Shown here piece after piece: positions 949-9,863 of a stretch of 11,456 nucleotides of DNA. The stretch covers positions 1 to 11,456 of the forward strand of contig DAOUZG010000025.1 in NCBI GenBank assembly GCA_030665705.1, in the 5' to 3' direction. The first letter of the stretch is position 1. Each line of letters opens with the position of its first letter. The DNA comes from Deltaproteobacteria bacterium. GTDB taxonomy: Bacteria > Myxococcota_A > UBA9160 > SZUA-336. The notes beneath the pieces were generated by a model that was not told where the DNA came from, made no database searches, and worked only from the letters and a program-made list of their open reading frames with translations. The position numbers were made by a program, and so were the translations under genes.

Positions 949-1803
949 GTGGGCGAGTTTCGGGTCGACTGGATCGCAGAGGGAGACGAGGCCCGGCTCG
1001 ACCAGGCGCGGGAGCTTGCCCGGTCCCGCGTCCTCGTTCACGCTTCGGTCTACGCTTCGCTCGACTGCCCTGCGATCCGCAAGCGGAGCCGACTGCTCGT
1101 GGTGAGCCACGGGGAGCGCCTCGTAGGCCTCGCAGCCGTTGTGGACGGGATCTTTCCCTTTCCCGCCGTTGCGCTCTGTGCCTCCCTCCCCGGAGCGTCG
1201 CAGTTCCTGCTCAGTCGGGTCGATGCTCCCTTTGTCGTCCTCGCGACCCAGCCCTTCTGGCACGAGGTTGAGCGTTGCGGCGGGCAGCGCGAGTTCGAGG
1301 AGATCCAGATGGCCCGGCTGCATCCGGCCGAGCTTCCCGATCCCGACCCCCGCCTCGAACGGCTGACGCGACCGGAGGAACTCAAGGCTCTCGTCGGGTC
1401 CCGCGTCTCGGCGGTCCACTTCGAGGCCGGGCCCTTCCTGGGTGTGCGTGGCCCCGAAGGGGACCTGGTCGCCTGCGGCGGTGTGCACTTCGTCACCGAC
1501 CGAGTTGCCCAGATCGCCTACGTGCACACGCGGCAGGATCGTCGGCGCGAGAAGCTGGCGACGTCCGTCCTCATCGGTCTGGTTCGTGAGTTGGAGACGG
1601 AACAGCGCCGTGTGGTTCTTCAGGCCCAGACGGACAACGGTGCTGCGATGCAGCTCTACGCGCGGTTCGGGTTCCGTGGTCGGGTTCGGACGGCGTCTTT
1701 CACCTTCGCCGAGCGGGTTGCTGCGCCGCCTCGTCGTTCGGCGCGAGCCGAGCCCGGCTCCTCAGGAAGAGGGGGACCGGGAGCGGATCCTCTGCAGCGC
1801 TGA
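949..1803 (+). CDS. GNAT-family N-acetyltransferase
   Basis: Predicted 284-residue acetyl-CoA-dependent acyltransferase; the acceptor is unknown. The C-terminal third carries the GNAT fold. A strand-rich core (GGVHFVTDRVAQIAYVHT, about 177-194) leads into the cofactor loop and helix at 195-208. The late motif is N230-x3-M-x-L-Y-x-R-F-G-F242, typical of motif B, in which the Asn and Tyr sit near CoA. The usual Q/R-x-x-G-x-G/A loop is degenerate here (RREKLA, 199-204): the first Gly is Lys and the last position is Ala. The N-terminal ~150 residues match no family I recognise and may shape the acceptor site. GTG at 949 is chosen because GGAGAGGA lies just upstream; the frame is open back to 781. 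It ends with TGA at 1801-1803 and overlaps the convergent cbpM gene by 42 bp. Confidence 0.82.
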   Translation: MGEFRVDWIAEGDEARLDQARELARSRVLVHASVYASLDCPAIRKRSRLLVVSHGERLVGLAAVVDGIFPFPAVALCASLPGASQFLLSRVDAPFVVLATQPFWHEVERCGGQREFEEIQMARLHPAELPDPDPRLERLTRPEELKALVGSRVSAVHFEAGPFLGVRGPEGDLVACGGVHFVTDRVAQIAYVHTRQDRRREKLATSVLIGLVRELETEQRRVVLQAQTDNGAAMQLYARFGFRGRVRTASFTFAERVAAPPRRSARAEPGSSGRGGPGADPLQR

Positions 1804-2055
1804 TTCGAGTGCCTGACGGAGCTCGCCGATCTCCTCCCGCATCCGCACGATGATGACGACACCGGCCAGGTTCACCTCCAGGTCGTCCACCAGGGTGTGG
1901 GCGACGCGAACCCGCTCCAACATCCGCTCCGAGAACTCGAGCTTGCTCGGTTCCGGTCCGTCCGACTCGATGATCTCCTCCTGTTCGAGAGCTCGGACGA
2001 AGCCCTCCTCCACGTTGAGAAGCTCCACGATCTGACGGCGCGTGTAGAAGGTCAT
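1762..2055 (-). CDS. cbpM: CbpM-like chaperone modulator (MerR-type HTH)
   Basis: A 97-residue protein of the CbpM/MerR-HTH_2 type, close in length to E. coli CbpM (101 aa), which binds the J domain of CbpA and restrains it. The N-terminus (residues 3-33, FYTRRQIVELLNVEE onward) is a winged-helix start like MerR. The C-terminal half (about 40-92) is a long amphipathic helical region (VRVAHTLVDDLEVNLAGV, then REEIGELRQALESAL) suited to dimerisation or partner binding. The ATG overlaps the cbpA stop (ATGA, bases 2055-2052), so translation is probably coupled, and the partner gene is directly upstream. An alternative is a small MerR/HspR-like repressor of the chaperone gene, or a DafA-like DnaK/DnaJ assembly factor. 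The cbpA neighbour makes CbpM the best name. Confidence 0.75.
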   Translation of the reverse strand: MTFYTRRQIVELLNVEEGFVRALEQEEIIESDGPEPSKLEFSERMLERVRVAHTLVDDLEVNLAGVVIIVRMREEIGELRQALESALQRIRSRSPSS

Positions 2056-3014
2056 GGCTGCTTCAGGTCCTTCCGCAGGTCGATCTCTCCATAGAGTTCT
2101 ACCCACTCCTGCGCGAGGGTCTCGAGACGCGGGTCATCGGTCTCCGGCAGGCGGGCGATGAGCCGCACGATCAGGTCGCCCCGTGCCTCGGTCTTGCGGT
2201 CGGGCACTCCCTTTCCGCGAAGCCGGAGGCGCGTTCCACTCTGCGATCGGGGCTGAATCCGCATGGAGACCGGTCCGTCCGGCGTGGGTACCTCGACGGA
2301 TGCACCGAGCACCAACTCGGGCAGGCTCACGGGCAGGTCCATGAGCAGATCCCGGCCCTCCCGTCTGAAGTACCGGTGAGGACGGACGTGGAGGGTCAGG
2401 TAGAGGTCGCCGGGCGGCCCGCCCGGGGTCCCCGGGGTGCCCTGGTTGGCGAGCCGGATCCGTGTGCCTTCATCCGACCCCCGCGGGATGCGGACTTTGA
2501 GCGTGGTCTCCTCGTCGGGCAGGCCGGGACCGCGGGGTCGGGCCACCCGAACCCGCACCTCCCCCCCGCGGATCGCGTCCATGAATTCGACGGTGACTTC
2601 CCCCTCGACGTCCTGCCCGCGCATCGGTCTGGCGGCTCTGAAGGGACCCCCGCGTGCCGCCCGTCCTCCGAAGAGCTCCGAGAAGAGATCCCCGAGATCT
2701 CCCTCGACGAAGGTCTGACTGAAAGGGCTCCGTCGGGTCCCTTCCGACCATTGACGGTAGGCACGCGCCTGGTCGGAGTCGAAGCCCTTGGCTAACCCGG
2801 CCGCTCCGAACTCGTCGTAAAGCTTGCGCTTCTGCGTGTCCGAGAGGATGTCGTAGGCGAAGGAGATCTCCTTGAAGCGTTCCTCGGCCTGCTTGTCGTT
2901 CGGGTTGACGTCGGGGTGGTACCGGCGGGCGAGCCGGTGGTAAGACTTCCGCACCTCTTCGGCGGAAGCTCCCCGGGCAACCCCCAGAACCTCGTAGAGG
3001 TCCTTCTCCTCCAT
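2052..3014 (-). CDS. cbpA: Type II DnaJ/CbpA co-chaperone
   Basis: A 320-residue J-domain co-chaperone that would stimulate the ATPase of a DnaK elsewhere in the genome and deliver unfolded clients. The J domain spans residues 5-70 with the essential HPD triad at 33-35. A linker rich in Gly, Phe and Arg follows (about 71-132). Then come two beta-rich client-binding domains (about 134-212 and 213-290) with the characteristic GDLYL (202-206) and RGDLIV (279-284 region) strands. There is no CxxCxGxG zinc-finger repeat, so this is the class II (CbpA-like) type rather than classical DnaJ. The ATG at 3014 has no clear Shine-Dalgarno just upstream, so expression may depend on read-through from the gene before it, 50 bases away. 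The stop overlaps the cbpM start by 4 bases. Confidence 0.92.
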   Translation of the reverse strand: MEEKDLYEVLGVARGASAEEVRKSYHRLARRYHPDVNPNDKQAEERFKEISFAYDILSDTQKRKLYDEFGAAGLAKGFDSDQARAYRQWSEGTRRSPFSQTFVEGDLGDLFSELFGGRAARGGPFRAARPMRGQDVEGEVTVEFMDAIRGGEVRVRVARPRGPGLPDEETTLKVRIPRGSDEGTRIRLANQGTPGTPGGPPGDLYLTLHVRPHRYFRREGRDLLMDLPVSLPELVLGASVEVPTPDGPVSMRIQPRSQSGTRLRLRGKGVPDRKTEARGDLIVRLIARLPETDDPRLETLAQEWVELYGEIDLRKDLKQP

Positions 3015-3064
3015 CCACGGTGACGATAGCGCAGGCGCCCGATCGGCGGGAAGCGCTCCGACCC

Positions 3065-3601
3065 CTACGCGGCGGAGGCGGGAAGTGTCTTCAGAAATTC
3101 CTCGGGCTCGGGGTGGTCCCCGGCCGACTTACTGCGGTAGGTGTAGTAGAGCGTGTCTCCCGGACCGATGACGACGACGCCGCCGAGCTGCCACGGGTCC
3201 CCCTTGACCTGCCCCTGCCGGAACCCACGACGGAAGGCCCGAAAGCCGTTCGTGAAGACGGTGGGGCCGAGGAGTCGCACGACTCCGCGTCGGAACTGTC
3301 CCGCCCGGTAGGCGTCAAGGCTGGGGTCGACAAACAGGGGAAACGGAATTTCGAACTCCTTCCGGAACTCACGCGCCTGCTCGGGCGTTCCGTTCCCGAT
3401 AACGTAGAGTCCTGCACCCAGTCGCTGGATCTCTTGCCATACGCCGCGCAACTGCGCGACCTGCTCGCGGCAGAAGACTCAACCGAAGTGACGAACGAAG
3501 ACGAGTACGGCCGGCCGCTCGGTCCAGAACTCCCGCAAGAGAGTCGACTTGCCATCGAGGTCCTGAACCTCGACGTGAGCGAGGTCTCTGATCCATTTCA
3601 T
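3065..3601 (-). CDS. Probable selenoprotein: peroxiredoxin-like-2 (SelU/SelL-related) redox protein with UxxC
   Basis: A 178-residue thioredoxin-fold oxidoreductase read through an in-frame TGA at bases 3481-3479 (residue 41). Before the TGA, residues 30-40 (PAVLVFVRHFG) form the beta strand that precedes the redox site. After it, VFCREQVAQL gives U41-V-F-C44 at the head of the active-site helix. The rest matches the peroxiredoxin-like-2/SelL-related pattern: VIGNGTPEQA (67-76), FPLFVDPSLDAYRAG (87-101) and, near the end, a GGVVVIGPG strand and SAGDHP. All parts share one frame, with no shift. The ATG at 3601 has GGGGA 6 bases upstream. It probably reduces peroxides or disulfides in the cytoplasm; the substrate is unknown. 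It lies 65 bases after sufT and 50 before cbpA. Other readings are a nonsense mutation or a sequencing error; the exact position at a redox Cys and the hairpin downstream argue against both. A standard caller would report only a ~128-aa fragment. Confidence 0.87.
3442..3472 (-). promoter_or_regulatory. Candidate bacterial SECIS hairpin in the selenoprotein mRNA
   Basis: In the mRNA, counting the U of UGA as 1, GCCGCG (11-16) pairs perfectly with CGCGGC (34-39), extended by a U10-G40 wobble. Within it, GGUC sits at 21-24 in the apical part, closed by G18-C26 and C19-G25 around AGGUC; a competing fold closes a larger loop that also contains GU. In E. coli fdhF, GGUC in the AGGUC(U) loop begins at nucleotide 22, one base later. 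The element lies inside codons for the conserved CREQVAQL helix, as bacterial SECIS elements do. The fold was drawn by hand, and GC-rich DNA makes chance stems common. Confidence 0.6.
3479..3481 (-). other. In-frame UGA, predicted selenocysteine codon
   Basis: The codon between Gly40 and Val42 reads TGA on the minus strand. It occupies the first position of a C-x-x-C type motif, where family members carry Cys or selenocysteine. Neighbouring sufC, sufD, sufS, cbpA and cbpM all end in TGA, several overlapping the next start, so UGA is a normal stop in this genome and needs a local recoding signal here. Confidence 0.85.
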
Positions 3602-3666
3602 GAAGGTTCCCCGCAGTTTGGAGGGCGCTTGGGTCCCCTGGAAGACGTACCGGTAAGTGAGGTGTG

Positions 3667-3990
3667 CTAGAAGCCGAGCGCGAGCCGCGCCGCCTCCGAC
3701 ATCATGCTCTGATTCCAGGGTGGGTCCCAGACCAGCTCGACGTCGGCATCCGCGACCCCCGGAACGCTCGCGATCTTCCGATGCACCTCTTCGACGAGGT
3801 AGCCCGCAACCGGACATCCGGGCGCGGTGAGCGTCATGCGGATCCTGGCGCGCTGCTCGTCGTCGAGGTCGATTTCGTAAACGAGGCCGAGCTCGTAGAT
3901 CGACACCGGGATCTCCGGGTCGTAGACGCTGTGGAGCACCTCGATGATGTGCTGTCGAATCTCATCGTGGGACGGGCTGCTCGGCTCCAT
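3667..3990 (-). CDS. sufT: DUF59/MIP18-type Fe-S assembly factor (SufT)
   Basis: A 107-residue single-domain DUF59 protein, the usual size for the short SufT/MIP18 group, which helps mature or deliver Fe-S clusters to client proteins. It shows the family marks: DPEIPVSIYELGLVYEI (24-40), with the Asp-Pro-Glu turn and the helix-strand after it; the conserved Cys59 in TLTAPGCP; and WDPPW (88-92) near the C-terminus. ATG at 3990 is chosen because AGGAG lies 5 bases upstream. It starts 20 bases after sufU, so it is almost certainly in the suf operon. A PaaD-like role in phenylacetate metabolism is unlikely given the neighbours. The open frame extends well upstream of 3990, but that part is a shadow of sufU. 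Confidence 0.9.
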   Translation of the reverse strand: MEPSSPSHDEIRQHIIEVLHSVYDPEIPVSIYELGLVYEIDLDDEQRARIRMTLTAPGCPVAGYLVEEVHRKIASVPGVADADVELVWDPPWNQSMMSEAARLALGF

Positions 3991-4010
3991 CACGGCTCCT
4001 TTCGGGTGGG

Positions 4011-4463
4011 CTATTCCGTCGTAACCGTCTCGTCGCCGCCACTCAGGGCGGCGCACAAGGTGTGCCACGGTAGGCTCGCGCACTTGACCCGGATCGGGTA
4101 ATCGCGGACCCCCGCCAGCACGACGAGCTTTCCGAGTGAGGGGCCCCCGCCGTTGGGCCCCGATGCGCCTGTCACCAGTTTGTGGACCTGCTCGAAGAGG
4201 GCCCTCGCATCCTCTACTCGCAGGCCCTTGATGGCTTCGGTCATAAGCGAGGCCGACGCGGTCGAGATGGCGCATCCGGACCCCTCGAAGTGAATCTCCC
4301 GGACCGTGTCGCCATCCAGCTCGAGGTGCACCGTGACCCGATCGCCGCAGAGCGGATTGAACCCCTCTGCCTTGCGGTTCGCCGTTGCAAGCTGGCCGAA
4401 GTTCCGCGGCCGCTTGGTGTGGTCGAGGATCAGCTCCTGGTACAGGTCCCTCAGGTCCGACAT
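4011..4463 (-). CDS. sufU: SufU sulfur-relay protein
   Basis: A 150-residue SufU, the zinc-containing partner of SufS that accepts the persulfide and passes sulfur to SufBCD. The three cysteines and one aspartate of the metal site are present: Cys39 and Asp41 (NPLCGD), Cys64 (GSGCAIS) and Cys128 (RVKCASLPW). The B. subtilis ligands are Cys41, Asp43, Cys66 and Cys128. The ~19-residue insert between the second and third ligand (GASGPNGGG region, about 99-110) distinguishes SufU from IscU. The start ATG shares one base with the sufS stop (TGATG). Together with SufS this marks the SufSU rather than the SufSE version of the pathway. Confidence 0.96.
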   Translation of the reverse strand: MSDLRDLYQELILDHTKRPRNFGQLATANRKAEGFNPLCGDRVTVHLELDGDTVREIHFEGSGCAISTASASLMTEAIKGLRVEDARALFEQVHKLVTGASGPNGGGPSLGKLVVLAGVRDYPIRVKCASLPWHTLCAALSGGDETVTTE

Positions 4464-5725
4464 CAGCCAAAAATCTCGTGCACGCGGTGGAGACCCTCAA
4501 TCAGCCGGTCTACCTCCTGGCGTGTGTTGTAGAGGCCGAACGACGCGCGCGTGGTGGCAGGCACCCCGAAATGCTGCATCACTGGCTGCGCACAGTGGTG
4601 ACCCGCCCGAGCAGCGACGCCCTCGCGGTCGAGGATCGTTCCTACGTCGTGGGCATGGACGCCCTCCATCACGAACGAGACGATGCTTACTTTCTCTTTG
4701 GCGGTTCCGGTCACGCGCACCCCTGGGACCTCGCTCACCTTTTCGGTGGCATACGCGAGCACCTCTTCCTCATGCGCTTGGAGAGCCGCCGCGTCTATTC
4801 CGGCCAGGTAGTCGATGGCAGCCCCCAGACCGATCGCGCCCGCGGTGTTGGGCGTCCCCGCCTCGAACTTGTAGGGAATATCGTGGTAGGTCGTCCGCTC
4901 GAATGTGACGCTGCGGATCATCTCTCCGCCGCCGTGGTACGGGGGCATCGCGTCGAGAAGCTCCGCGCGTCCGTAGAGCACGCCGATCCCGGTGGGGCCG
5001 TAGGTCTTGTGCCCCGAGAAGGCGTAGAAGTCGCATCCGAGCTCCCGCACGTCGACGCGGAGGTGGGGTGCCGCCTGGGCACCATCGACGAGGACAGGAA
5101 CCCCCGCCGCGCGCGCTGCGTCCACGATCTGCCCGACCGGGTTGACGGTCCCGAGGGCGTTGGAGACGTGGGCGAGTGCGAGGAAACGGGTTCGAGGGGT
5201 CAGAAGCTGGTCGAGTTGCTCCAGGACGAGCTCCCCTCGCTCGTCGAACGGGAGCACCCGGAGCCGTGCACCGGTCTGCTCGCAGACGAGCTGCCAGGGA
5301 ACGATGTTGGAGTGGTGCTCCATCTCCGTGATGAGAATCTCGTCACCCTCCCGCATCCGAGGACGAACGAAGCTCTGGGCTACCAGGTTGATGGCCTCGG
5401 TCGTGCCTCGTACGAAGACGACCTCTCGCTCATCTGCGGCTCCGATGAAGCTCTGCGCCTTCGCCCGTGCCGTCTCGAAGGCCTCGGTTGCCTGCTCCGT
5501 CAGCTCATCCAGGCCGCGGTGCACGTTGGAGTTGTAATGAGCGTAGTAGCGGCTCACCGCATCGATGACGGCCCGGGGCTTTTGCGTGGTTGCCGCGTTG
5601 TTGATGTAGACGAGCGGCTTGCCCCGAATGGTGCGCTCGAGAATCGGAAAGTCCTTCCGGATCCGAGCGACGTCCAGACCGGACGAGCTCCGCTCCCGGG
5701 GGTGCGCTCGGCGGGGTGCCTTCAC
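4463..5725 (-). CDS. sufS: SufS cysteine desulfurase
   Basis: A 420-residue PLP-dependent group II desulfurase that takes sulfur from L-cysteine and leaves alanine. The PLP lysine is Lys240 in SGHKTYGPTG. The catalytic cysteine is Cys378 in RAGHHCAQP, the short conserved form of group II enzymes. Other marks are NNAATTQKP (42-50), EMEHHSN (134-140, with the His that stacks on PLP) and VDGAQAAPH (213-221). The GTG at 5725 overlaps the sufD stop (GTGA) and has GAGG 8 bases upstream; the longer open frame upstream is a shadow of sufD. Group II enzymes of this kind can also act on selenocysteine, which may matter next to a selenoprotein gene, but that link is inference. Confidence 0.97.
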   Translation of the reverse strand: MKAPRRAHPRERSSSGLDVARIRKDFPILERTIRGKPLVYINNAATTQKPRAVIDAVSRYYAHYNSNVHRGLDELTEQATEAFETARAKAQSFIGAADEREVVFVRGTTEAINLVAQSFVRPRMREGDEILITEMEHHSNIVPWQLVCEQTGARLRVLPFDERGELVLEQLDQLLTPRTRFLALAHVSNALGTVNPVGQIVDAARAAGVPVLVDGAQAAPHLRVDVRELGCDFYAFSGHKTYGPTGIGVLYGRAELLDAMPPYHGGGEMIRSVTFERTTYHDIPYKFEAGTPNTAGAIGLGAAIDYLAGIDAAALQAHEEEVLAYATEKVSEVPGVRVTGTAKEKVSIVSFVMEGVHAHDVGTILDREGVAARAGHHCAQPVMQHFGVPATTRASFGLYNTRQEVDRLIEGLHRVHEIFG

Positions 5726-7035
5726 GACTCGAGCCTCCCCGCAACTCCGTTCCCGAGCCACATGAGCATCTGGCGGTCCAACCGAGACCTGAGCGTGTCC
5801 ACCGGGAGCTCTTTGAGCACCTCCCACGCAAATCCTCGGAGCAGGGTGGCCCGTGCCTCTGCGAGGCTGATCCCGCGCGAGCGGAGGTAGAAGAGCGCGT
5901 CGTCGTCCAGATGACCCACGGTCGTCCCGTGGGTGCACCGAACGTCATCGGCGTAGATCTCGAGCCAGGGCTTCATGTTGACACGCGCACCGCGGGAGAG
6001 CACCACACTCCGGCTCGTCTGGTTCGCGTTGATCTTCTGCGCGCCCGGCCTCACCAGGATGTGTCCCAGGAAGACCCCGCGTGCGCGGTCATCGAGGATC
6101 CCCTTGTAGGTCTCCCGGCTCGAGGTGCTAGGGCTCGCATGATCGATCCGCGTGTAGTGATCCAGGTGCTGACGGTTCCGGCCGGCGAAAATCCCTTCCA
6201 GGCTGCACTCCGCGCCTTCCCCGGCGAGCCGCGTCTCGATATCGACGCGCGCCAAGCTGGATCCGAGCGCGAGTGACCAGGATCGGAGCCGGCTCGCGGA
6301 CCGCTGCTCGGCCACCACCCGACCGACGTGGAAAGCCCGCTCCGACTCCTCTTGGAGCCGAACGTGGTCCAAACGTGCATTCGACTCGACGAAAATCTCC
6401 GTGACCGGCGCGCTCAACGTCGGCGAGTCGCCCCCGCTTCGGTAATGCTCCACGATCACCCCTTGGCTCCCCTCGCCCGCCACGATGACGACGCGGGGGA
6501 AAGCCGCCCGGGGTTCGCCGTTCGACTCGACGTGGTGAACGACGTGCACGGGCCGGTCGAGCGTGACGTGCGGCGCGAGCTCGATCAGGACACCCCGATC
6601 GAAGAGGGCCGTGTTCACGGCTGTGATCCCGGGGGACTCGCAGTCCGCGAGCTGACCGAGGCGACCCTTTACCCTGTCGAGACTCTCCACCAGCGAGCCG
6701 ATGGTGAGTCCCCGGGGAAGTCCGTTCTCGGGGATATCGAGGAGGATCCCCGATCCTGTTACCGCGACTCGATACGCCTCGCCGACGCGTTCGGGGAGGT
6801 CCACCGGAAGCGTTGCAGCCCCGTTTGCGGCGGGTCGGAACGGAACACGGCGGATCGGATCGAGAGGCGTGTGGCGCCAGACCTCCTCCCGAGGGCCGGG
6901 GAGGCCCGTCTCCTCGAAACGCTCCGCCGCCTGGCGCCGCAGCTCCTCCACCCAGCCGCTCTCCGCACCTGCGAGCTCGGCCCGGCGGGATCGGTAGGCC
7001 TCGATGAGCGAGTCTTGGGCCACGACGGGACTCAC
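5722..7035 (-). CDS. sufD: SufD Fe-S scaffold subunit
   Basis: A 437-residue subunit of the SufBC2D scaffold on which the nascent cluster forms. The N-terminal helical part (1-60, with PREEVWRHTPL at 48-58) precedes the right-handed beta-helix core. The C-terminal conserved block runs RSRGISLAEARATLLRGF (about 385-402). In the segment DDVRCTHGTTVG (363-374), Cys367 and His369 correspond to the region of the E. coli SufD histidine (His360) needed for cluster assembly. GTG at 7035 overlaps the SufC stop as GTGA. SufB and SufD are homologous; this copy lacks the SufB signature [16 protein letters not shown], which confirms the assignment. Confidence 0.95.
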   Translation of the reverse strand: MSPVVAQDSLIEAYRSRRAELAGAESGWVEELRRQAAERFEETGLPGPREEVWRHTPLDPIRRVPFRPAANGAATLPVDLPERVGEAYRVAVTGSGILLDIPENGLPRGLTIGSLVESLDRVKGRLGQLADCESPGITAVNTALFDRGVLIELAPHVTLDRPVHVVHHVESNGEPRAAFPRVVIVAGEGSQGVIVEHYRSGGDSPTLSAPVTEIFVESNARLDHVRLQEESERAFHVGRVVAEQRSASRLRSWSLALGSSLARVDIETRLAGEGAECSLEGIFAGRNRQHLDHYTRIDHASPSTSSRETYKGILDDRARGVFLGHILVRPGAQKINANQTSRSVVLSRGARVNMKPWLEIYADDVRCTHGTTVGHLDDDALFYLRSRGISLAEARATLLRGFAWEVLKELPVDTLRSRLDRQMLMWLGNGVAGRLES

Positions 7036-7817
7036 GCTTGCAGGGTCCTCCCTTCGGCCTGGCTCGTCTTCGCGGTCTCCTTCTCGATCCAGGCGTAGCC
7101 GTGCTCTTCGACCTGCTTGGCGAGCTCCCGATCCCCCGATTTGACGATCCGTCCGTTGAGGAGAATGTGCGTGAAGTCGGGAACGAGGTAGTTCAGGATC
7201 CGCTGATAGTGCGTGACCACGACGATTGCGCGGTCCTCGCGCCGCAGCTCGTTGACGCCGTTTGCCACGATCCGGAGGGCATCGACGTCGAGCCCGGAGT
7301 CGGCCTCGTCGAGGATCGCGAGCTTGGGCTCCAGCACCGCCATCTGCAGGATCTCGTTCCGCTTCTTCTCACCCCCGGAGAAACCCTCGTTGATCGAGCG
7401 GTTCAGGAAGCTCTCGTCCATCTGCACCACCTTCAGCTTCTCCCGCACGAGCGCCAGGAACTCGAACGCGTCGATCTCCGGCTCGCCCCTCTCCTTGCGG
7501 ATCGCGTTGAGGCCCGCGCGGAGGAAGTAGCTGTTGCTGACACCCGGGATCTCCACGGGGTACTGGAATGCGAGGAAGATCCCCTCTTGCGCGCGCTCCT
7601 CCGGCGCGAGGTCGAACAGGTTGTGGTTCTCATAGATGACCTCGCCCGCGGTCACCTCGTAGCCCGGTCTCCCGGCGAGGACGTGCGCGAGGGTGCTCTT
7701 GCCGGACCCGTTCGGTCCCATCACCGCGTGTACCTCACCCGCCCGGACCGTGAGGTCGACTCCGCGCAGGATCTCAACGCCCCCCACCTTAGCGTGAAGG
7801 TTTCTGATCTCGAGCAT
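7032..7817 (-). CDS. sufC: SufC Fe-S assembly ATPase
   Basis: A 261-residue ABC-type ATPase that binds SufB and SufD and drives the conformational change needed for cluster assembly; it is soluble, not a transporter. Walker A is GPNGSGKST (34-42), the ABC signature FSGGEKKRNE (146-155) is the SufC-specific form, Walker B is LAILDE (166-171), the D-loop is SGLD, and the switch histidine is His203. ATG at 7817 is chosen because GGGAGG lies 8 bases upstream and the protein then begins MLEIRNLHAK like its relatives; the longer open frame upstream overlaps sufB. It starts 20 bases after the sufB stop, and its own stop overlaps the sufD start. Confidence 0.97.
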   Translation of the reverse strand: MLEIRNLHAKVGGVEILRGVDLTVRAGEVHAVMGPNGSGKSTLAHVLAGRPGYEVTAGEVIYENHNLFDLAPEERAQEGIFLAFQYPVEIPGVSNSYFLRAGLNAIRKERGEPEIDAFEFLALVREKLKVVQMDESFLNRSINEGFSGGEKKRNEILQMAVLEPKLAILDEADSGLDVDALRIVANGVNELRREDRAIVVVTHYQRILNYLVPDFTHILLNGRIVKSGDRELAKQVEEHGYAWIEKETAKTSQAEGRTLQA

Positions 7818-7837
7818 CCCCCGTGCCTCCCGACGAG

Positions 7838-9283
7838 CTAGCCGACCGATCCTTCGAGTGTCACGCCGAGCAACTTCTGAGCTTCGACTGCAAACTCCAT
7901 CGGCAACTCGCGGAAGACCTGCTTGCAGAAGCCGTTGACGATCATGGAGACCGCATCTTCGGCAGAGATTCCTCGCTGCTGGCAGTAGAACAGCTGGTCT
8001 TCCCCGATCTTGGAGGTACACGCCTCGTGTTCGACGACGGCCTCACTGTTCCGGGCGTCGATGTAGGGGAAGGTGTGGGCGCCACAGCGGTCTCCGATCA
8101 GAAGCGAGTCACACTGGGTGTAATTGCGGGCGTCGGTCGCGCGTGGGTGGACCTCCACCAGGCCCCGGTAGGTGTTCTGTCCACGGCCGGCCGAGATTCC
8201 CTTCGAGACGATGGTACTCCGCGTGTTCTTCCCAATGTGGATCATCTTCGTTCCGGTGTCGGCCTGCTGGCGGTTGTTCGTAACCGCAACGGAGTAGAAC
8301 TCGCCGATCGAGTCGTCCCCCTGAAGAAGTACGCTCGGATACTTCCACGTGATCGCAGACCCTGTTTCCACCTGCGTCCAGGAGATCTTGGAGCGCCTCC
8401 CGGCGCAGCGGCCCCGCTTCGTCACGAAGTTAAAAATCCCACCCCGGCCGTCCTTGTCGCCGGGGTACCAATTCTGGACCGTCGAGTACTTGATCTCTGC
8501 GTTTTCGAGCGCGACGAGCTCGACAACGGCCGCATGAAGCTGGTTCTCGTCCCGCATGGGAGCCGTGCAGCCTTCGAGGTAGCTGACGTGGCTGCCCTCG
8601 TCGGCAACGATCAAGGTTCGTTCGAACTGACCGGTCTTCTGCGCGTTGATCCGGAAGTAGGTCGAGAGCTCCATCGGACAACGCACGCCCTTCGGTACGT
8701 ACACGAAGGAGCCGTCCGTGAAGACCGCGGAGTTCAGCGTGGCGAAAAAGTTGTCGGAGTACGGGACGACCGAGCCGATGTACTTCTTGACGAGCTCGGA
8801 GTGATCCCGGAGCGCTTCCGACATCGAGCAGAAGATGATCCCCAGCTCGCCGAGCTTCTCCTTGAAGGTCGTTGCCACCGAGACACTGTCGAAGACCGCA
8901 TCCACGGCCACGCCGGTAAGCTGCTTCTGCTCCGCGAGCGGGATCCCGAGCTTCTCGAAGGTCCGGAGCAGCTCGGGGTCGACCTCATCCAGGCTCGCCG
9001 GTCCGTCCTGCTTCTTCGGTGCCGCGTAGTAGACGATGCTCTGATAGTCGATCGGATCGTAGTGCACGTGGGGCCAGTGCGGCTCCGTCATCTCGAGCCA
9101 GCGCCGGTACGCCTTGAGGCGCCACTCCAGCATCCAACTCGGCTCGCCCTTCTTCGCGGAGATGTGTCGAATGACGTCCTCGTTGAGCCCCGGCGGGATC
9201 GTGTCCTGCTCGATGTCCGTGACGAATCCCCACTTGTACTCGCGATTCGCCAGGCTCTCGATGTCGTGGCTCGAGTCACTCAT
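7838..9283 (-). CDS. sufB: SufB Fe-S scaffold subunit
   Basis: A 481-residue SufB, full length for the family. It receives sulfur from the SufS/SufU pair and carries the nascent cluster with SufC and SufD. Conserved blocks are YKWGFVTDI (16-24), SYLEGCTAP (234-242, with Cys239 matching the E. coli sulfur-entry Cys254), [19 protein letters not shown] (292-310) and [19 protein letters not shown] (387-405). Cys391 and Glu420 keep the 29-residue spacing of E. coli Cys405 and Glu434, the cluster-assembly pair. The start ATG at 9283 has AGGAG 5-6 bases upstream. It is the first structural gene after the rrf2 regulator, separated by 83 bases with no terminator-like hairpin. Confidence 0.98.
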
Positions 9284-9366
9284 CGGGTCTCCTGCAATTC
9301 CGTCGCCTCCGCCGTGCCCGCTTCCGCTTCTGCCGGGGTGCCTGGGGAGCAGTCAGGCCAGCGCCT

Positions 9367-9846
9367 CTACCCTGTCGGCTCCTCAGCGGCTGCCTCCGGG
9401 GAAGGTGCGTCCACCCACAGCGCGAATTCGCTCTCGGCCCGCTGGAGGTCGGCCAGGGTGATCCGGTCCAGTGCGTCGCGGAGGCCCGCCTCCAGGGCGC
9501 GCCACAGGGCGCGGATTGAACAGTCCGTAGTGTGGATGCAGTCGCGAAGGAGGCCCGGATGGGAGTTGCAGAAGCTCTCCGGGAAGAAGGAGCCACCGAG
9601 CGTTCCGATGACTTCCCACGCGGTGACCTCACGCGAGTCACGGGCCAGCCGGTACCCGCCTCCCGGCCCCCGCGTGCTCGTGACCAGGCCTCCCTGGCGC
9701 AGCGCCCGCATGAGCTTCGCGGTGTACTCGGGACTGAGGCCCTCTGCCTCCGCGATCTCGGGAATGGTCAGCGGCTCCGAACCGCGGTGCTGGGCTACCT
9801 GGAGCAGGCAGCGAAATCCGTACTCTTCCTGAGCGAGCAGATGCAT
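9367..9846 (-). CDS. Rrf2-family regulator, likely Fe-S sensor of the suf operon
   Basis: A 159-residue Rrf2/IscR-family transcription factor, read first in the suf operon and so probably autoregulating it. The winged helix has a DNA-contact helix (LSPEYTAKLMRALRQGG, about 37-53) followed by the typical wing TRGPGGGYRLAR (58-69). Three clustered cysteines, Cys93, Cys103 and Cys109 (C-x9-C-x5-C), lie in the usual cluster-binding loop, followed by SIRALWR. IscR has C-x5-C-x5-C, so the first gap is longer here. ATG at 9846 is preferred over a GTG two codons upstream because it puts the conserved EY pair at residues 8-9; no strong ribosome-binding site is visible. The role is inferred from family and position; the exact ligand ([2Fe-2S], [4Fe-4S] or NO response) cannot be told. 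Confidence 0.9.
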   Translation of the reverse strand: MHLLAQEEYGFRCLLQVAQHRGSEPLTIPEIAEAEGLSPEYTAKLMRALRQGGLVTSTRGPGGGYRLARDSREVTAWEVIGTLGGSFFPESFCNSHPGLLRDCIHTTDCSIRALWRALEAGLRDALDRITLADLQRAESEFALWVDAPSPEAAAEEPTG

Positions 9847-9863
9847 GAGCACGAACTTAAGAA

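Follow-up and report, generated by a model that had tools for sequence, protein, structure and literature searches.

A very probable SelL-related selenoprotein gene, with a conserved SECIS hairpin, at the end of a suf operon in a deltaproteobacterial genome bin

What is to be made of a bacterial reading frame that is open on both sides of a single TGA? In the window, i.e., the whole stretch of 11,456 nucleotides analysed here, the minus-strand frame from ATG 3601 to TAG 3065 (3065..3601) would encode 178 amino acids before its TAG, and translation places its one internal stop, a TGA, at codon 41 (3481-3479), in the surroundings VLVFVRHFG*VFCREQVAQLR. The initial annotation had described just this, one frame with FVRHFG*VFCREQ around a single TGA, and translation bears it out. 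From the frame and from the codons of relatives, the UGA (3479..3481, minus strand) is read as selenocysteine (Sec) and as the first residue of a U-x-x-C motif, the second residue of which, presumed to be the resolving one, is Cys44 (TGC, 3470..3472, minus strand), invariant in 13 of 13 aligned members. The length of the frame is by itself no proof, as the window is GC-rich and has longer frames bridged by TGA: the 12 longest of the 230 counted extend over 424-707 codons and that of the selenoprotein over 298, and the chance of meeting such a frame was set aside as an uninformative argument. What does go beyond chance, as far as sequence can tell, is that homology extends to either side of the TGA, that 48 of 72 loci share the TGA and that the hairpin is conserved.

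With the TGA taken as Sec, the protein matches the NCBIfam family NF040769, SelL-related redox protein, over its full length, at 138.6 bits where the curated cut-off is 120; the match takes in positions 4-172 of the 173 in the profile and residues 8-172 of the protein. There are also Pfam matches to AhpC-TSA_2 (72.7 bits) and AhpC-TSA (45.5 bits), and all 13 of the 13 aligned UGA members match NF040769 at E <= 0.001. The best match by sequence of the 13-member alignment to a solved structure is to prostamide/prostaglandin F synthase (PDB 9us9, E 8.4e-15, profile positions 8-164), which we take to be PRXL2B, and the fold of the selenoprotein is, as for its family, presumably thioredoxin-like. 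The CxxC of the synthase aligns to the UxxC of the window's protein, though it has Cys and not Sec, and its substrate is not transferable. Invariant in the alignment are G40, site 41, F43, C44, R45, E46 and Q47, and beyond the site G69-N70-G71, G134-D135, Q138-L139-G140 and G161-D162-H163. The proposal that this is a protein of the peroxiredoxin-like-2, SelL-related family with Sec at its site gains from the above-cut-off NF040769 score and from 9us9, and the Sec part of it also from TGA or Cys codons at 72 of 72 loci, a covarying SECIS element and the presence of selA, selB and selD in the bin, each considered below. A search of the bin for a second SelL-like gene gave only a weak TlpA-like match, with Cys and no TGA; an Rfam scan of 3000-3700 matched no family, and there was no match to plasmids.

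Could UGA have another meaning in this organism, either through general reassignment to Trp or Gly, or through plain read-through? UGA terminates five of the nine other minus-strand genes of the window that were checked (cbpM, dnaJ, sufS, sufD and sufC), and the plus-strand ORF at 781-1803 also ends in TGA, so the earlier claim that UGA is an ordinary stop in at least six other genes stands. Among relatives' genes whose end is covered, 26 of 44 have TGA as their own stop, and where any of the 72 loci has a codon other than TGA at the site, it encodes Cys, never Trp or Gly. The genome bin (1.99 Mb, 338 contigs, 75.9% complete) carries selA (446.7 bits), selB (303 bits, summed) and selD (339.8 bits), the last (G000:C242, L021:6119-7201, minus strand) with an in-frame UGA of its own, GG*ARKLG, and, 27 nt downstream, an 8-bp bSECIS-like hairpin with the loop GUC. 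What favours another route for the UGA is that the bin, at 75.9% completeness and with 150 of 374 candidates scored by RF01852, did not yield selC, the gene for tRNA-Sec; the contigs with selA, selB and selD have none, and a strict pattern search of the bin gave nothing. The lone match over the RF01852 cut-off (L001:270-359, 52.1 against 47) is a tRNA-Ser(CGA), i.e., a false positive. Yet a tRNA-Sec match that scores 58 bits or more and is 94-96 nt long is present in 70 of 90 genomes of the class, including 7 of the 10 of the same family, the next best match in the class, below 58 bits, being the 52.1-bit tRNA-Ser of the bin, and ARAGORN reported tRNA-SeC(TCA) in all ten loci submitted to it. 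The gap in the bin is most simply missing sequence. Of the Sec machinery for which the initial annotation had proposed a check, selA, selB and selD are present and selC is the part not found; that UGA here is decoded other than as Sec is very unlikely.

Some other features of these genomes were noted. In one class-mate, G013, a single contig carries two tRNA-Sec genes separated by 1.3 kb (L056:703-801 and 1974-2072). As for formate dehydrogenase (TIGR01591), a search for it as a further selenoprotein of the bin gave nothing over the cut-off and no internal stops. By eye, near-identical translated stretches are present at both ends of contig C97 (L019:17-337 and 3463-3795), with a similar one in C242 (L021 near 5678), and these may be copies of an interspersed repeat.

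Is the TGA simply an error of sequencing for TGC or TGT, or a fresh nonsense mutation in a dying gene? The locus comes from a single draft genome and Cys forms do exist, but relatives are informative. Scanning of named genomes with the peptide FCREQVAQ gave 72 loci, a few bins contributing two, and the site codon is TGA in 48 of them and TGC or TGT in 24, with no other codon; the UGA thus occupies, in frame, a redox position that is Cys in homologs, and the alternation of Cys and U at position 41 that alignment of homologs had been expected to reveal is what was seen. The best matches among the 72 come from records with Myxococcales, Myxococcota or delta proteobacterium in their titles, and the TGA form occurs also in records under the names Acidobacteria, Actinomycetota, Desulfobacterales and Chthonomonas. 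One UGA ortholog, L109, is that of a cultured isolate, Desulfosarcina widdelii PP31. A search independent of the FCREQVAQ pattern, among 282 genomes of the phylum, gave 81 matches at 1e-10, and the best 48 of the 81, the window's own included, all have an in-frame TGA (for two of these 48 a second TGA is counted, which is the terminal stop). Thirty of these phylum loci were fetched, again with the window's own among them, and all 30 have TGA at the site; they are in part the same genes as in the 72-locus set. With the identical TGA at 48 of 72 loci and at 29 other loci of the phylum (partly the same genes), with the residues downstream of it conserved, and with a covarying conserved hairpin 3′ of it, an error or a dying gene is extremely improbable.

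Protein collections give a rather different impression from that of the nucleotide records. Among 120 proteins listed of 159, Cys is at the site in 99, 19 start after the site and two, the metagenomic homologs P0006 and P0065, have Arg at the Sec/Cys position. Since gene callers stop at UGA, such a list is biased and blind to Sec; Cys forms are, all the same, common in the family. The 60 listed class matches that exceed the NF040769 cut-off comprise 35 with a single TGA, 24 free of stops and one with a TAG, so NF040769 includes both Sec and Cys forms. In G070:C198, the relative with the TAG, the site has Cys and the TAG lies elsewhere. A second UGA-containing group within NF040769, with the site HRHL-x-U-LPC, was seen in the class-mates L023, L024 and L025. 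On a tree, Sec and Cys require six changes, three of them forced by well-supported branches; the window groups with long Cys branches under weak support (61/65), so that its place is unsettled.

How would the decoding apparatus tell this UGA from an ordinary stop? The 18 nt at 3460-3443 (3443..3460, minus strand) are GUCGCGC-AGUU-GCGCGGC, a core hairpin of 7 bp with the loop AGUU, 25 nt from the UGA to the loop, and -13.1 kcal/mol for the core. For bacterial SECIS elements the legend to Fig. 2 of PMC13188914 gives a loop of 3-9 nt, an upper stem of 4-16 bp, a G among the first two loop nucleotides, a spacing of 16-37 nt and a minimum free energy <= -7.5; the window's hairpin falls within every one of these limits. 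A longer fold around it in the window's mRNA (3429..3478, minus strand) has -22.6 kcal/mol (z -1.89), and the evidence from conservation is for the core hairpin. In 49 UGA genes (that of the window and 48 others) 94.8% of 343 hairpin cells are paired, 13 cells have changes on both sides, a number reached by none of 500 shuffles, and the covariation score is 0.232, with slid structures giving 0.085 or less. These double changes fall in two of the pairs, and that count is unexceptional (130 of 500 shuffles). More double changes are present in phylum loci, e.g., GUCACGC/GCGUGAC in L160 and L177. At least six of the seven pairs are kept in 46 of the 49 UGA genes and in only two of 23 Cys genes (a further Cys locus, L133, was too short and was dropped); the three remaining UGA genes have fewer than six pairs in this register. 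All seven pairs are present in 23 of the 30 phylum loci, and the other seven have five or fewer in this register. The loop contains the codon for Leu51. Of the 46 UGA genes having Gln-Leu at residues 50-51, 45 use TTG for this Leu; among other Leu codons of the 48 relatives' genes TTG accounts for 61 of 889. We read the hairpin and the TTG pattern as selection on the RNA.

Several results temper this. The amino acids of the 5′ arm are fixed by the search, as the arm underlies the peptide FCREQVAQ that was used for finding the loci. The window's own fold is moderately better than those of shuffles, z being -1.89 for 54 nt, with nine of 200 shuffles folding as well, and -2.96 for the core, with three of 200. 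When RNAalifold was run free, it gave a weak and partly different consensus (-4.28 kcal/mol), in which two inner pairs and the outermost one are lost and an upstream helix is gained.

The same TTG has a consequence for annotation. The mechanical list of ORFs divides the gene into one frame that ends at 3479 and another, of 128 aa, that begins with TTG 3451 (3065..3451, minus strand), and this truncated call, an artefact whose start is the TTG of the SECIS loop, is present in the protein collection as P0001, a stub of 128 aa with 98% identity over 72% of the query. That a gene caller would split or truncate the protein had been predicted, and P0001 is an instance; P0004 (75% identity, 128 aa) has the same truncation. 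The SECIS-loop TTG is mistaken for a start codon, and in consequence collections contain stubs that have lost the active site: an annotation trap. That there really are two proteins, a peptide of 40 aa and one of 128 aa from TTG 3451, is what mechanical calling suggests and has next to no likelihood, given that TTG 3451 is the loop codon of the SECIS element, that the C-x-x-C site would vanish, that both halves lie in one NCBIfam domain (residues 8-172) and that the sequence preceding the TTG codes for protein and has, by eye, no clear ribosome site.

We conclude that 3601-3065 on the minus strand is very probably, on the evidence of sequence, a genuine bacterial selenoprotein gene for a SelL-related, peroxiredoxin-like-2 oxidoreductase. 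On the known pathway, SelB carrying Sec-tRNA-Sec would bind the AGUU loop and permit insertion of selenocysteine at codon 41. The selenolate of U41 would then attack a peroxide or disulfide and close a selenenylsulfide with Cys44, which thioredoxin or glutathione may reduce and so recycle. U41 presumably sits where classical peroxiredoxins keep Thr, a position that would point to chemistry of the thioredoxin kind and away from the classical peroxidatic kind. The peroxidatic motif of classical peroxiredoxins is PxxxTxxC/U in the relevant passage of PMC13188914, and the site here, RHFGUVFC, lacks it, having no T-x-x-C.

How much of this was known? SelL, ‘a Prx-like protein’, was listed in 2008 among the selenoprotein families common to prokaryotes and eukaryotes, and the same passages of that paper (PMC2398784) have Sec-containing SelL/Prx-like proteins already reported in aquatic bacteria, while being silent on the RHFG-UxxC group. 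Animal SelL, related to the window's protein by NCBIfam name, is described in the pertinent part of PMC3316567 as having two Sec, two residues apart; the window's protein has one, codon 44 being TGC for Cys, and so is not SelL in that strict sense. The earlier assignment to a SelU/SelL group holds in that the protein is SelL-related, with the qualification that its motif is UxxC and not that of the two-Sec animal protein. Table 1 of PMC13188914, an inventory of 119 families from 2026, gives cd02970 no motif other than UxxS, and PMC9312934 gives pfam13911 with UxxS; through a shared entry cd02970 and pfam13911 are one family. That UxxS selenoprotein shares the AhpC-TSA_2 domain and has Sec first in its motif, but the fourth residue in the window's protein is Cys. 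Within the parts of PMC13188914 at hand there is no mention of NF040769 or SelL, and Table 1 is without a cd02970 UxxC row, though its PF00578 row, ‘Prx-like UxxC, UxxU’, may already cover the window's form. The passages of the literature searched contain no earlier description of this UxxC form, an absence that is not firm, and the family name of NF040769 shows that curators know the group. Within that family the highest scores in the class, 172-178 bits, belong to three matches with HRHL-x-U-LPC, in contrast to the RHFG-U-xFC of the window's group, whose scores of 129.7-138.6 bits are below those of the HRHL-x-U-LPC group and not far above the cut-off of 120. The window's protein is an addition to a known family, both the family and prokaryotic Sec-containing SelL having been described before.

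Has the location of the gene a bearing on its function? The minus strand at 1762-9852 has a suf operon, rrf2-sufB-C-D-S-U-T, then the selenoprotein gene, dnaJ and a MerR_2 gene that we take to be CbpM-like, i.e., the selenoprotein gene is at the end of the suf operon, between sufT (PF01883) and dnaJ. Eight of ten genomes of the same family have the sufS-sufU-sufT block, and in the 1.3-1.5 kb covered beyond sufT in those genomes there is no selenoprotein gene. Likewise none of the 72 relatives has a suf operon adjoining the gene, in flanks that reach 8 kb at most and are often shorter. The Cys relative L117 has homologs of sufU and sufS some 5-6 kb off on the other strand, and weak, distant neighbours some kb away are a sufC-like gene (24%) in L105 and L107 and a dnaJ-like gene (30-32%) in L108 and L112. 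A link to suf as a general rule was therefore discarded as unsupported, the operon being absent beside the gene in relatives and the gene absent beside sufT in family genomes, and for the same reason co-operation with SUF is a local possibility only. It is conceivable, though rather unlikely, that in this lineage the suf operon has acquired, at its end, a Sec-containing SelL-like oxidoreductase as a working partner, e.g., one that keeps the thiols of SufU and SufS, or the complex that builds the clusters, in the reduced state during oxidative stress. If so, it would be a selenium-dependent guard of Fe-S cluster assembly, and the neighbourhood is a functional hint for this lineage only. The locus adds a well-supported selenoprotein, with a covarying SECIS element, that occurs in genomes of several phyla.
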